Source: Aurantimicrobium minutum (lineage in GTDB: Bacteria > Actinomycetota > Actinomycetes > Actinomycetales > Microbacteriaceae). From it: a DNA stretch of 64,000 nucleotides. The DNA lies in the NCBI RefSeq assembly GCF_002355535.1, contig NZ_AP017457.1:806001-870000 (forward strand). Direction: 5' to 3'. Both the position numbers and the translations under genes were made by a program. The notes under the pieces were generated by a model. The model ran no database searches, was not told the origin of the DNA, and worked only from the letters and a program-made list of their open reading frames with translations. Shown piece by piece: positions 13,180 through 17,981 of the stretch; within the stretch, counting starts at the first letter, position 1; every line of letters begins with the position of its first letter.

Positions 13180-13764
13180 CTACTCGGTTGAGCGCACCTG
13201 AAGTGTCGCAATGGACTGCGGGTTGTGGATACGCACATATTCTTCAAATTGGGCATCCCAGTCACTCCAATGCTCGGCAAAGTTCTCACCCGTTCGAGAA
13301 AGAGCGCGTTCCCTGCGCAGTTCTGTGTCAGCATCGAGCCACAAGCGCACCTGTGAAAGGTTCTGTGCTCCTTGTGGCAGTGCCCCGCAGCCTTCAATAA
13401 GCAGTGGTTCACGGGCATCCACTGAATGCCACTGCGTGAGCTTTTCCTGCGACCAGTCATATTGCTGCCAGTGGGTGTCTTGCCCAGCTGAACGCTCATT
13501 AAGCATGCGGGCTGCTGTGCTAACTCCCTCGAGGAGACCATTCCAGCCTGGATACAAATCATCCATGTGCACAATTTGTAGTTTTACTGCCGAATTCCAG
13601 TGCTTTTCCAGCTCGGCAGAAAGTGTGGTTTTTCCAGCTCCACTAGGACCATCGAGTAGGAACGTGGGTGCCGGAGCACCACGAGTGTGTTTCACACTCT
13701 CGTTGTAGGCCGTGGAGAGCTGATAGATGTGAGCAATAATCTGCTCGATATCAGGAGATAACAA
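13180..13764 (-). CDS. P-loop nucleoside/small-molecule kinase-like protein (uridine kinase-like)
   Basis: The 194-residue protein has Walker A GPSGAGKTTL (about residues 39-48), a uridine-kinase-like acidic segment VHMDDLYPGWNGL and a LID-type region with LRRERALSRTG. This is the layout of the uridine kinase/phosphoribulokinase superfamily, but the substrate is not evident. It starts with TTG at 13764, 14 nt inside the ecfT coding region, and is therefore translationally coupled to the TPP-riboswitch operon. A role in salvage of an imported pyrimidine or thiazole is possible but is inference from position only. Confidence 0.75.
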   Translation of the reverse strand: MLSPDIEQIIAHIYQLSTAYNESVKHTRGAPAPTFLLDGPSGAGKTTLSAELEKHWNSAVKLQIVHMDDLYPGWNGLLEGVSTAARMLNERSAGQDTHWQQYDWSQEKLTQWHSVDAREPLLIEGCGALPQGAQNLSQVRLWLDADTELRRERALSRTGENFAEHWSDWDAQFEEYVRIHNPQSIATLQVRSTE

Positions 13765-14509
13765 AATTCCACGCTCCCGTCATCACAGCAACAGTGACAG
13801 ATATTCCTGCCACAAAGAATGCTCCAGCAATAAACCAACCATCTTGCACCCGCCACTCAGACTGTCTTGCCCAGGTTCTGGCAATCGGTGAATCAAATGC
13901 CCGAGCTTCCATAGCAGTTGCCAGCAGACTACCTCTGCGGATTGCCAAAGTGAGTAACGCCAAAGCCAAGCTCAACAACCGGGCACTTGCCCTGATTGAC
14001 CCAACTCCATCAGCAACTCCCCGAGCACGGCGGGCAAGTCTGAGCATGTTCCAGTCCTGACGCATCAGACCCAACATGCGAATTGCCGCAAGCGCGCCTA
14101 GGACGAACCGAGCAGGAAGCTTCCATAACTGCGCCAGTGCATCAGCTAAATCAGTGGGGTCTGTTGTAGCAAAAAGCACAATTGCTGGAAGTGCCACAGC
14201 CAGAATGCGCAAAGTAATGGTTACTGCCAGAGCAACCTCGCCCTGAGTTATGTTCCATGGACCGATAACAACAAACGTGTTGCCTTCATCACGCCCATAC
14301 AGCAAACCTGATAATCCTGCGAAGGGTGCAGCAATGAGTAACGGCGAGAGAATCTTGATGAGTTTCTTGGCAGGAACCCCAGCAAAAGGTAACAATGCAC
14401 ACTCAAAGATCAAAGCAACAACCGCTGAAACTGGATCGAGCGATAACAGCAGCACCACGCCAAGAATGGCTGCTGCACATAGTTTGGCAATCGGGTTAAT
14501 CGAGGACAT
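13751..14509 (-). CDS. ykoC: ECF transporter transmembrane subunit EcfT (YkoC-like)
   Basis: The 252-residue membrane protein has about six helices and the two Ala-Arg coupling motifs of EcfT proteins: LRLARRARGV in the cytosolic loop and ATAMEARAFD closer to the C-terminus. These short helices contact the ATPase domains. It joins the substrate-binding subunit to the ATPases in an energy-coupling factor transporter. ATG 14509 is chosen over GTG 14518 because AGGTGG lies five bases upstream. It overlaps the ATPase gene by 14 nt and the kinase-like gene by 14 nt. Confidence 0.92.
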   Translation of the reverse strand: MSSINPIAKLCAAAILGVVLLLSLDPVSAVVALIFECALLPFAGVPAKKLIKILSPLLIAAPFAGLSGLLYGRDEGNTFVVIGPWNITQGEVALAVTITLRILAVALPAIVLFATTDPTDLADALAQLWKLPARFVLGALAAIRMLGLMRQDWNMLRLARRARGVADGVGSIRASARLLSLALALLTLAIRRGSLLATAMEARAFDSPIARTWARQSEWRVQDGWFIAGAFFVAGISVTVAVMTGAWNFVIS

Positions 14510-15935
14510 GCTCACCACCTACTCTCACAACCCGATCGGCAAGAGCAGAAACAAGAGCCTCATCATGAGTGATGGTAACGATGGCATGGCCCTCATCACG
14601 AAGCTCACTCAGCAGCTTCACCATCTGTGACCAGGTTGCGGCATCCTGGCCAAAGGTAGGCTCGTCCAAAATCAGCACCGCAGGTTGTGCAGCTAATGCA
14701 GTTCCTACAGATAGTCGTCGCTGTTGCCCACCAGAGAGCGTAAATGGATGCGCATCCGCCAGATCTGAAAGATGTAACCGTTGCATGAGCGAATCGACGA
14801 GAGTAAGGATCTGGGTCTCTGGAAGTTTCAGCGCCCTCGGCCCAGCCGAGAGTTCTTCTCGAACAGTTGCTGCAATAAATTGATGTTCGGGTGCCTGGAA
14901 GACACTGCCAATACGGCTCAAGAGTTCGCGGGAGCGCCATTGAATGGGTTCATCCGATCGTGCAGTTCCACGCAGCTGTGCAGTAGCAACAACCTTGCCT
15001 GATGGCGCGGGTATGAGCCCACCTAAAGTCAAGGCGAGAGCGGTTTTCCCAGCACCATTGGGTCCCATGATGGCCAAGACTTCACCGGCGTGAACATCGA
15101 GGTCCGCAACGGGAAGGGGGGCTGTAGAACCCGGATATCCGACCTCAAGTTGTTGGGTTATGAGGAGTGTTTCCCCTGTTGTACCTCGGCGCGGAACTGG
15201 TTTGGTCACATGCGGGAGCCAAATGCCAGTCTTCTCGAACTCACTAGCTTTCTCCTGGGGTAACTGTGCCGGCGGCCCATCCCACATCACACCGTTTCGC
15301 CCCAGCACAATAATGCGCGTGGCAAAATCCCACCACAGCTCCACACGATGCTCAACCATCACGATGGTTGCACCGGTAGCATCAACGACCTTGGTTAACG
15401 CATTCTTCAATGCGAGAGCTCCTGCAGGATCAAGATTTGCCGTGGGCTCATCTAGGGCAATGATTTCTGGTTGCATTGCCAGTACACCAGCTAATGCCAG
15501 TCTCTGTTTTTGACCGCCGGATAATGCGGAAGTTGAGTGGTTGAGTGGAACATTCAGCCCGACAAGATCACAGGCTGCCTCCACTCTCTGCCAGATTTCT
15601 TCACGAGGAATGCCGAGATTTTCACAACCAAAAGCAACATCGTCACCGACGCGTTCCAAAATGACTTGGTTCTCTGGATCTTGTAACACGAGACCAATGC
15701 GACCACGGGAATTGAGCGGGGGCAGCCCATTGAGTAGGACGGAACCCTGTTCTGTTCCCTCATCCTCACCGAGCACACCCGCGAAGGCCCTGAGTAGGGT
15801 ACTTTTACCCACACCAGAGGCCCCAAGGAGCAGAACCCGCTCGCCCTGAGCAATCTCGCAAGAGATATTGCTCAGCGTAGGGGTAGAGCGGGCAGCGTAC
15901 TGCCAGCCCCACTCCTGCGCTGAAAGAGTTGCCAC
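14496..15935 (-). CDS. ykoD: ECF transporter ATPase with two fused nucleotide-binding domains (YkoD-like)
   Basis: The 479-residue protein is a tandem of two ABC domains. Domain 1 has Walker A GASGVGKST (38-46), signature LSGGQKQRLALAG and IIALDEPTANLD. Domain 2 (from about residue 255) has GPNGAGKTA, signature LSGGQQRRLSVG and VLILDEPTFGQD. It replaces the separate EcfA and EcfA' subunits and powers uptake. The GTG start directly abuts the ykoE stop (TAG-GTG) with only a weak ribosome site, so translation is probably coupled. The order E-D-C is that of B. subtilis ykoFEDC, without ykoF. Confidence 0.94.
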   Translation of the reverse strand: MATLSAQEWGWQYAARSTPTLSNISCEIAQGERVLLLGASGVGKSTLLRAFAGVLGEDEGTEQGSVLLNGLPPLNSRGRIGLVLQDPENQVILERVGDDVAFGCENLGIPREEIWQRVEAACDLVGLNVPLNHSTSALSGGQKQRLALAGVLAMQPEIIALDEPTANLDPAGALALKNALTKVVDATGATIVMVEHRVELWWDFATRIIVLGRNGVMWDGPPAQLPQEKASEFEKTGIWLPHVTKPVPRRGTTGETLLITQQLEVGYPGSTAPLPVADLDVHAGEVLAIMGPNGAGKTALALTLGGLIPAPSGKVVATAQLRGTARSDEPIQWRSRELLSRIGSVFQAPEHQFIAATVREELSAGPRALKLPETQILTLVDSLMQRLHLSDLADAHPFTLSGGQQRRLSVGTALAAQPAVLILDEPTFGQDAATWSQMVKLLSELRDEGHAIVTITHDEALVSALADRVVRVGGEHVLD

Positions 15936-16520
15936 CTAGCTGATACGCCCTGCAGCGAATCTGCTCAGTGCCCCAGCCCTGGCTAAACCTCGAACAATAA
16001 ACCAGGACATCAATCCGCCGATGACGGCACCAGAAATCACCCCACAGATGACATAAGTGACCTGGAATCCGAAGTCGACACCGGGGTACCAAACAACTAA
16101 GTCATTGATACTCATCGCGACACCCGCTCCAGCACCAGCAAACACAGCTGTAAAAACAGACCAGTTGGCGTAGAGGAATAGGGCAAAGACAATCTCAGCA
16201 CCGAGGCCTTGAACAAGACCTGAGATGAGCGTTCCAAAGCCCCACTGGCTACCCAACAGCGCTGAAACGGTTGCTGCAATGAGTTCGGTATAGATTGCGG
16301 CGCCAGGCTTGCGGATGATCAAACCACCCAGGACAGCGGCGAACAGCCACCCACCACCGAGTAGTGCAGTGAAGCCTGGTGTTGCAGACAGTGCTGCCGA
16401 GAGTGGCCCATAGGCCAAACCCCAGGCCCAGAAAATGATGCCGGATGCGACACCAATCACACTTGCGACGACGATATCGACAACGCGCCAGCGGTACTTA
16501 CTTACAGTTGTTGCGTGCAC
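15936..16520 (-). CDS. ykoE: ECF substrate-binding subunit for a thiamine precursor (YkoE-like)
   Basis: The 194-residue membrane protein has about six helices and matches YkoE in length and pattern (GVASGIIFWAWG, then QWGFGTLISGLVQGLGAE). YkoE is the specificity subunit predicted for hydroxymethylpyrimidine or a related thiamine moiety. The TPP riboswitch directly upstream fits this role. The GTG at 16520 has AAAGGGG eight bases before it, and this site lies inside a predicted sequestering stem of the riboswitch. It is the first gene of the E-D-C-kinase operon. Confidence 0.92.
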   Translation of the reverse strand: MHATTVSKYRWRVVDIVVASVIGVASGIIFWAWGLAYGPLSAALSATPGFTALLGGGWLFAAVLGGLIIRKPGAAIYTELIAATVSALLGSQWGFGTLISGLVQGLGAEIVFALFLYANWSVFTAVFAGAGAGVAMSINDLVVWYPGVDFGFQVTYVICGVISGAVIGGLMSWFIVRGLARAGALSRFAAGRIS

Positions 16521-16668
16521 TTGCGTGCCCCTTTCGGTTGAAATGAGGGCACGGGATTATTCGTTGAGAATGCCTCCCTGCGCTGGCATGATCCAGATCA
16601 GGTTCGACGGTCGAAAGTTACGAAACTTTCCTCTCAGCCCGGTGTACCGGACTCCCGTGTTCGTTCAA
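16521..16668 (-). promoter_or_regulatory. TPP riboswitch (THI element) with RBS-sequestering expression platform
   Basis: Read on the minus strand, the aptamer (about 16566-16664) has CGGGAGTCC, the P3 stem CCGG-TACA-CCGG, conserved CTGAGAGG, then GAACCTGATCTGG, ATCATGCCAGCG and CAGGGAGG, all hallmarks of the TPP class. Downstream, CGTGCCC (16547-16553) can pair with GGGCACG (16524-16530), covering the ykoE Shine-Dalgarno. CACGGG at the aptamer 5' end (16654-16659) is complementary to CCCGTG (16550-16555) and would compete with that stem. TPP binding is expected to repress translation. The aptamer overlaps the dinB 3' end, and the dinB TGA lies in CTGAGA. Confidence 0.95.
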
Positions 16669-17863
16669 TCTTACGCAAGAACGAGGCGGGACGAACACTA
16701 TCGGGGCCAAACTTTTCTCCCACCTGATCCATCACAATCTCTGCTTCTTTCCAGGCGTCAGCCTCGTCGCCCCACAACGAGAGTTGTTGCGTACCTGCAT
16801 CCACCAAGGATGCAGCGCGAACACCAATGAGACGAATCGCTCTGCCGCCGGTTTTGAGCTCGTCGAGAAGTTCACACACCACCTTGTGTATTTCTCGTCC
16901 GACACTGGTTGCTTCTGGCAGTGTGCGACTGCGGGTGAGCGATTCAAAGTCTGAGAACGTGACCTTCAAGCCGATTGTTCGAGCCTCGAGCTGCGCTTTG
17001 CGCAGCTGGGCTCCAACATGGTCGGCTTGGAACAACAGTGTGGCTTTGAGCTTCACAGCGTCCGTGACGTCCTCATTGAAGGTGTGTTCTTTGCCAATGC
17101 TTTTTTCTGCCCGCTGGGTTGATACTGGGCGCGGGTCCCGCGCCCACGACAATTCATAGAGGTGGGTCCCTGCGGCCTGGCCTAGTGCTGAAATCAAACT
17201 AGCTGGAGGCGACTGGGCAATATCTGCAACAGTGTGTAACCCTCGCTTGTGCAACACCTCAGCTGTTTTCTTGCCCACACCCCAGATTGCTTCAATTGGG
17301 AGGGGATGCAAAAAAGCCAACGTTTCTTCTTCTGGAATAACCAGCAAGCCGTTAGGTTTCGACTTTGTTGAGGCAAGCTTTGCCACAAACTTTGTACTCG
17401 CTACTCCCACAGAGCAGGGCAATCCCGTCTCATCACGAACACGATCTTTTATTTGCTGGGCAATCTGTTCTGGAGTGCCAAAAATTTTCTGTGCACCTGA
17501 GACATCCAAAAAAGCTTCGTCGATAGAAAGCTGTTCAACGACGGGCGTGAAGTCATAAAAGATAGACATCACTTTCTTGGAATACGCCCGATACTTCTCA
17601 AAGTGGGGTTCTAAAACAATGACATCTGGGCACAGCCGCTTGGCAGTGACTAACGGCATCGCCGAACGAATACCTAAAGCCCTAGCTTCATAGGTTGCAC
17701 TCGTGACAACAGAGCGCGGCGAATCGTGTGCAACAACTGCAGGTTTGCCGGCAACTTCGGGTCGATCCAATACCTCCACGGACGCGAAGAACGCGTCCAT
17801 GTCGATGTGAAGAATGTTAGGCGCGGTTCCACCTAGAAGCGAGACCGAATGCGAGGGTTGCAC
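16634..17863 (-). CDS. dinB: DNA polymerase IV (Y-family)
   Basis: The 409-residue translesion polymerase has metal-binding motif HIDMDAFFASVE near the start, SIDEAFLDVSG with the catalytic Asp-Glu, helix-hairpin-helix IWGVGKKTAEVL and a little-finger domain. It bypasses damaged bases at the cost of fidelity. GTG 17863 is preferred because GGAG lies six bases upstream; the longer ORF from TTG 17941 has no such site. The start is 47 nt inside a small membrane protein gene. The last about 10 codons (ending ERTRESGTPG) are also the 5' strand of the TPP riboswitch. No SOS box was recognised. Confidence 0.93.
   Translation of the reverse strand: MQPSHSVSLLGGTAPNILHIDMDAFFASVEVLDRPEVAGKPAVVAHDSPRSVVTSATYEARALGIRSAMPLVTAKRLCPDVIVLEPHFEKYRAYSKKVMSIFYDFTPVVEQLSIDEAFLDVSGAQKIFGTPEQIAQQIKDRVRDETGLPCSVGVASTKFVAKLASTKSKPNGLLVIPEEETLAFLHPLPIEAIWGVGKKTAEVLHKRGLHTVADIAQSPPASLISALGQAAGTHLYELSWARDPRPVSTQRAEKSIGKEHTFNEDVTDAVKLKATLLFQADHVGAQLRKAQLEARTIGLKVTFSDFESLTRSRTLPEATSVGREIHKVVCELLDELKTGGRAIRLIGVRAASLVDAGTQQLSLWGDEADAWKEAEIVMDQVGEKFGPDSVRPASFLRKIERTRESGTPG
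16668..16673 (-). promoter_or_regulatory. Candidate -10 for the riboswitch transcript, inside dinB
   Basis: TAAGAT on the minus strand would place the transcript start near 16661, just before the aptamer 5' strand CACGGG. The -35 region (GTTCGT-like) is poor. The operon may instead be read through from dinB. Confidence 0.35.
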
Positions 17864-17981
17864 CGAGAACTCCAGCGGCGAAGATCCATGCGCCGTATTC
17901 GGGGTAAGCGAATGCCTGTCCCATGGTCCAGCAGGAGCCAACAGAAAGTGCCATCACGACGATAAACAAGAGAACTCGCAT
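17817..17981 (-). CDS. Small membrane protein (54 aa) overlapping the dinB start
   Basis: Reading the minus strand from ATG 17981 gives 54 residues (MRVLLFIVVMALSVGSC..., ending ASRWNRA) and a TAA. Hydrophobic segments at about 3-24 and 31-50 are separated by a short loop with AYPEYGAW, and a positive C-terminus follows: a two-helix hairpin or a signal plus one helix. AAGGAG is five bases before the ATG, which supports real translation. It overlaps dinB by 47 nt in another frame, so translation of the two is probably coupled. No function is known. Confidence 0.65.
   Translation of the reverse strand: MRVLLFIVVMALSVGSCWTMGQAFAYPEYGAWIFAAGVLGATLAFGLASRWNRA

Follow-up and report, generated by a model that had tools for sequence, protein, structure and literature searches.

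Which of two overlapping features dictates a sequence when a protein gene ends inside a regulatory RNA, and how could such an arrangement arise and still allow regulation? The question is raised by a locus in the window, that is, the whole stretch of 64,000 nucleotides of the small freshwater bacterium Aurantimicrobium minutum analysed here, in which the gene for DNA polymerase IV (dinB), a polymerase of DNA repair, runs into a TPP riboswitch. The reading that we favour, and consider very probable, is that a TPP riboswitch unit with its own promoter represses the downstream operon ykoEDC, and that dinB overran this unit as the spacer between them was lost. The features of the locus are as follows; the evidence for each is given in brackets.

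13751 to 14518, minus strand: ECF T component, YkoC-like, PF02361 (frame, Pfam)
14496 to 15935, minus strand: duplicated ECF ATPase, YkoD-like (frame, profile matches)
15936 to 16520, minus strand: ykoE-like ECF S component, PF09819, with a GTG start, presumably the regulated gene (Pfam)
16524 to 16553, minus strand: sequestor hairpin, CGUGCCC (16553-16547) with GGGCACG (16530-16524) (fold)
16535 to 16528, minus strand: probable ykoE ribosome site GAAAGGGG, hidden in the sequestor (fold)
16550 to 16556, minus strand: UCCCGUG, complement of CACGGGA, overlapping the 5' arm of the sequestor (conservation, fold)
16558 to 16668, minus strand: TPP riboswitch aptamer, RF00059 (covariance model)
16610 to 16607, minus strand: CCGU, pairing in P2 with the ACGG of CACGGGA (fold)
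16632 to 16637, minus strand: CTGAGA of the aptamer, whose TGA is the dinB stop (sequence, alignment)
16636 to 16634, minus strand: stop codon TGA of dinB (sequence, frame)
16637 to 16660, minus strand: last 8 codons of dinB (TRESGTPG), at the same time the aptamer 5' strand with the P2 5' strand, P3 and its loop (sequence, alignment)
16653 to 16659, minus strand: CACGGGA, proposed switching strand (pairing in P2 or with UCCCGUG)
16668 to 16673, minus strand: TAAGAT, a -10-like hexamer within the dinB codons CGT AAG ATT (8 nt before CACGGGAG)
16634 to 17941, minus strand: open frame of dinB from the first TTG (Pfam IMS, IMS_HHH, IMS_C)

The product of dinB carries the domains IMS, IMS_HHH and IMS_C and exceeds the cut-off of the NCBIfam model for Pol IV; its true start is probably located further downstream than the first TTG listed. 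The 3' end of the gene reads ACA CGG GAG TCC GGT ACA CCG GGC TGA, such that the protein ends in RTRESGTPG. A further reading frame of 54 amino acids (MRVLLFIVVMALSVGSC...) at 17817-17981 on the minus strand overlaps the listed start of dinB, and the gene may therefore be overlapped at both ends. The ECF operon downstream is taken here to be YkoEDC, involved in the uptake of thiamine or HMP, while the Pfam name for PF09819 refers to cobalt. No match to ThiC was found in the genome (the control matched in 13 of 14), which would fit an organism that depends on the uptake of thiamine or HMP.

Identification of the aptamer

The RF00059 model was matched by cmscan at 16668-16558 of the minus strand (56.1 bits, E = 2.6e-8, model positions 1-105). 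The match is full-length, lies 1.8 bits above the curated Rfam gathering score of 54.3 bits, and is the sole TPP match with E <= 0.001 in the genome of 1.62 Mb. The aptamer contains the conserved core elements CTGAGA, ACCTGAT and GCG-AGGGA as well as the helices P2, P3, P4 and P5 (alignment; the pairs of P2 and P4 are also listed in the computed fold), and it precedes an ECF S/A/T operon with PF09819, assigned by Pfam, whose link to thiamine is our assumption. The call by the covariance model, together with the position of TGA within CTGAGA, confirms the original prediction of a TPP riboswitch nested in the 3' end of dinB with the stop codon inside the conserved aptamer; no correction of the dinB frame moves the stop upstream.

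One helix departs from the model: in P1, 4 of 5 pairs are non-standard. P1 does not contribute to the ligand pocket of TPP riboswitches and is for this reason not counted as defining for the class. We regard the aptamer as an ordinary member of the known TPP riboswitch class, of which its placement and the missing P1 constitute a variant, and predict from its sequence that it binds TPP. A decayed or accidental TPP-like element, or a misread frame of dinB, might be suspected from the narrow margin of 1.8 bits and from the unformed P1 helix. This suspicion is already contradicted, and hardly credible, given that the 7 other members of the genus score between 57.3 and 57.8 bits and that the family sites sampled share a conserved promoter and platform.

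Conservation of the overlap and selection on the dinB tail

All 8 sampled genomes of Aurantimicrobium (g1) use the TGA of CTGAGA as the stop codon of dinB. Two g1 genomes agree in their coordinates with A. minutum MWH-Bo1 and MWH-Mo2, and one g83 genome agrees with Alpinimonas psychrophila DSM 23737. The same overlap is found in both sampled genomes of the Alpinimonas group (g83), as well as in 5 of the 6 genomes of a third genus (g13) that are among the matches listed, a count beside which additional g13 genomes without dinB are possible. For the sixth g13 genome (G019, 82% complete) no match to TPP, ykoE or dinB was found. Named isolates (L160-L163) and two MAGs (L159, L164) likewise carry the overlap, and this recurrence in isolates and independent assemblies rules out chance or an artefact of annotation or sequencing. 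We note that one Aurantimicrobium assembly with 6% contamination (G007) contains a second dinB match (G007:C43:35287-35682), whose alignment ends 3 residues short of the end of the query.

A distant genus represented by one genome (g28) shows the same arrangement in a different context. Here dinB, confirmed by Pfam, also ends at the TGA of CTGAGA, and the next gene is not ykoE: it encodes a lipoprotein that resembles ThiB on visual inspection, and its ATG is located 68 nt downstream of the C of CTGAGA. At this locus (L108, 1325-1400) the aptamer is squeezed between dinB and the ThiB-like gene, with its 5' end inside dinB, and a stretch resembling a ribosome site (AGGAAG) is located at its 3' end.

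Since the aptamer begins inside the end of dinB, the RNA would dictate the last amino acids of the protein as well as its stop, as had been predicted. The claim is supported by a comparison of codons across 15 distinct dinB genes that carry the overlap (8 from g1, 2 from g83 and 5 from g13). Among degenerate codons with an invariant amino acid, 7 of 7 in the tail are without any synonymous change, compared to 1 of 92 elsewhere in dinB. The corresponding Fisher p of 5e-10 overstates independence because the 15 genes are related; nevertheless, the contrast between tail and body within one alignment is extreme. In the body of dinB, the longest stretch of fully invariant codons is 1.

Selection of the tail RESG[TIE]PG as a protein sequence, merely tolerated by the RNA, would be consistent with the conservation of these amino acids in three genera. 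We consider it very improbable: the synonymous freeze is a feature of the tail, the sole variable residue (T, I or E) maps to a loop, that of the aptamer's first hairpin, and the other DinB proteins compared carry different tails. In addition, the CACGGGAG strand and CTGAGA are also present in relatives whose dinB stops short of them, that is, beyond the reach of the gene. The evidence from codon usage thus supports selection on the RNA, not on the protein. The locus is a clear natural example in which an RNA element writes a protein's C-terminus, and the codons demonstrate directly which of the two is selected.

A probable internal promoter for the riboswitch

According to the original prediction, an internal promoter with the hexamer TAAGAT would produce the riboswitch alone. 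The hexamer is indeed located at 16673-16668 of the minus strand, and a -10-like box at a fixed place argues in favour of such a promoter. We compared 88 distinct ykoE-TPP sites, collected with regular expressions in which CACGGGAG is obligatory; duplicates as well as L153, L156 and L166, which have ykoE without the aptamer pattern, were left out before this count. The underlying ykoE loci comprise the 30 best matches and others picked from among the matches listed, including named isolates. A TANNNT hexamer ends 5-12 nt before CACGGGAG in 84 of the 88 sites, namely in 69 of 73 sites without and in 15 of 15 sites with an overlap.

The background is low. Windows slid 40-200 nt upstream contain the hexamer in a mean of 0.2 (non-overlapping) and 0.1 (overlapping) sites, which corresponds in a recount to 4 of 1168 and 1 of 240 windows, respectively. 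Upstream of the 73 non-overlapping sites, TANNNT occurs at 6 of 11680 positions, in DNA with a G+C content of 67.5%. In the overlapping genomes the hexamer varies (TAAGAT, TACAAT, TAGAGT, TAGTGT and TAACAT) with T, A and T constant, and its changes go together with changes of the dinB residues encoded there. No convincing match to a -35 hexamer was found upstream of the box at the ykoE-TPP sites. Judged by its spacing from the hexamer, a putative transcript start is expected near 16661-16660; a start about 7 nt past the box would lie no more than one or two bases from the beginning of the P2 strand.

A likely switch without P1

The absence of P1 is shared by the sampled sites. In the 73 non-overlapping sites, a mean of 2.00 of 5 pairs is formed, compared to 1.91 when partners are shuffled between genomes; in the 15 overlapping sites the mean is 1.47 of 5, compared to 1.47 when shuffled. 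Only the innermost C-G pair is steady (72 of 73 and 15 of 15 sites, respectively). The sampled ykoE TPP riboswitches of the family thus appear to lack P1, with transcription starting at P2, and point to a form of the TPP riboswitch whose transcript apparently begins at this helix.

The role of a switching strand would then fall to the 5' strand of P2. The segment CCCGTG, complementary to CACGGG, occurs downstream of the aptamer, ahead of the start of the ykoE alignment, in 81 of the 88 distinct sites. In 78 of these 81 it belongs to an inverted repeat of at least 5 bp, and in 3 of 81 there is no such repeat. CCCGTG is missing in 7 of 88 sites, 4 of which (L139, L141, L146 and L155) have an ATG within approximately 15 nt of the aptamer. 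For the window, TCCCGTG was obtained in 22 of 20000 shuffles of its own 55-nt stretch.

We propose the following mechanism. The unit would consist of its own -10 box, an aptamer that forms the extreme 5' end of the transcript and a sequestor of the ribosome site, and plentiful TPP would result in repression of the thiamine/HMP uptake operon ykoEDC. With TPP bound, P2 would hold CACGGGA and leave UCCCGUG free, such that the hairpin CGUGCCC:GGGCACG can form and hide the ribosome site of ykoE (OFF). Without TPP, CACGGGA would pair with UCCCGUG, thereby breaking both P2 and the sequestor (ON). In computed folds, the ON state has -56.4 kcal/mol, compared to -50.3 kcal/mol for the OFF state (aptamer and sequestor, without ligand), a difference that binding of the ligand could compensate. 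The sequestor itself has -15.1 kcal/mol; the minimal hairpin left in its place has -5.6 kcal/mol, or -10.8 kcal/mol if the second hairpin, newly formed downstream, is included. Even in the computed ON state, a weak hairpin contains the ribosome site, with an unpaired probability of at most 0.11 per base, so its opening would be relative and not full. The switching segments are nearly invariant and therefore offer conservation but little covariation. On the basis of these models, the likely switch is the pairing of CACGGGA, a segment that at the same time encodes dinB residues, with UCCCGUG; this pairing excludes P2 and the sequestor.

Possible coupling to dinB translation

A scan for sites resembling intrinsic terminators found none between dinB and the aptamer (Rho-dependent ends are outside such a scan), so that, unless it is terminated by other means, a dinB mRNA includes the riboswitch. 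It follows from the geometry that ribosomes on such a read-through transcript would cover the aptamer. The overlap might then be regulatory: ribosomes translating dinB would unfold P2 and P3 and cover CUGAGA, such that dinB expression overrides the sensing of TPP. When the 5' part is masked in the fold, corresponding to a ribosome at UGA that would occupy the switching strand, the sequestor is retained, and dinB translation would therefore keep ykoE off on that mRNA. The lack of a terminator-like site and this fold speak for a regulatory role, as do the conservation of the overlap in three genera and its probably independent origin in g28.

We nonetheless regard it as unlikely. The conserved promoter would yield riboswitch RNA without dinB, related genera retain the synteny without the overlap, and the aptamer alone explains the conservation. 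A strong induction of dinB is also not evident, because no LexA-like palindrome (SOS box) with up to 1 mismatch was found in the window. Coupling of ykoE to dinB translation is possible in terms of these folds but improbable, since a passive overlap is suggested both by the conservation of the promoter and by the related genera in which the overlap is missing. A more elaborate version is similarly doubtful: a three-layer overlap, in which the same bases serve as -10 box, aptamer and protein tail and dinB translation physically resets the riboswitch, thereby tying vitamin uptake to dinB expression. Such an arrangement would have evolved at least twice because a stop codon is already present in CTGAGA. 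Compared to either version, a riboswitch unit that acts from its own promoter is preferred. The locus also provides a simple setting in which to test the disturbance of an aptamer by ribosomes during translation.

Rarity and relation to known riboswitches

The frequency of such overlaps was estimated for 120 other actinobacterial TPP loci (the 30 best of a family sample and 90 among the matches listed of a phylum sample). CTGAG is found at the expected place in 117 of 120 loci, and an open frame of at least 80 codons ends at its TGA in 13 of 120. No Pfam domain was found in these 13 frames, all of which were scanned, or in 13 further picked long frames that end elsewhere near the aptamer. Genes without a domain can be missed and the loci are among the best-scoring, hence the result indicates rarity and not absence. 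Likewise, the titles and beginnings of abstracts of open-licence literature, among the matches listed, contain no description of a riboswitch aptamer that holds the stop codon of an upstream enzyme gene. Searches for riboswitches that are restricted to intergenic regions could miss or truncate elements of this kind.

The sensor represents a familiar type. Its overlap with dinB is unusual and conserved, and probably evolved on two occasions. According to PMC2258182, attenuation of translation is the most common mode outside Firmicutes. The window element resembles RF00059 THI elements with translational control in its covariance match, CTGAGA, helices P2-P5, presumed thiamine transporter downstream and hiding of the ribosome site. 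It differs from them in that the aptamer has its 5' end within the preceding gene and provides the stop codon of that gene, in the lack of P1, and in a switching strand that looks like the 5' strand of P2 instead of P1. The nearest known case is the translated frame within the metE B12 aptamer of Mycobacterium tuberculosis (PMC11260477). This paper reports B12 riboswitches with uORFs whose translation alters the expression of the downstream gene, and shares with the window a translated frame in or next to an aptamer of an actinobacterium. However, the frames in M. tuberculosis are short uORFs (PMC11260477), whereas in the window the 3' end of a full enzyme gene is involved, with its stop in the aptamer core.

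Origin of the overlap

The history of the overlap was traced in a dinB tree without the tail, based on 34 of 35 chosen loci (L072 was too short and was dropped; 3 of the 8 genus members are included). The genera g1, g83, g13, g39 and g47 group together at 99/99. A single origin for g1, g83 and g13 is compatible with the AU test (p = 0.111), which neither demonstrates nor rejects one clade. One origin for all four genera is rejected when g28 is added (p = 0.003), with the caveat that g28 is a long branch with odd composition. Since only the clade with g28 is rejected, two origins of the overlap are likely, albeit not proven, with g28 probably independent.

Among the loci read, dinB is also located upstream of the TPP-ykoE unit in g3, g26, g34, g39, g45, g47, g63 and g78; a small reading frame is seen by eye between dinB and TPP-ykoE in g3 and g78. 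The stop of dinB is found approximately 60 nt before CTGAGA in L066 (g45) and L089 (g39), and 37-40 nt before CTGAGA, at the -10-like box itself, in g47 (L099-L101) and L102 (g39). The neighbouring genera may therefore show intermediate stages of dinB approaching the aptamer. We infer a passive origin, in which dinB overran the riboswitch as the spacer vanished. Loss of spacer DNA, followed by a change of frame (the order is our suggestion), would let dinB run on to the next in-frame stop, which is supplied by the aptamer; the conserved UGA of CTGAGA would thereby have become the dinB stop, and the aptamer 5' strand its last 8 codons.

At seven loci (L099, L100, L101, L102, L107, L110 and L113) the stop codon of the upstream gene, TAG or TAA, coincides with the first three bases of the TANNNT box. 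In three of these (L107, L110 and L113) the gene upstream of the aptamer gave no match to dinB.
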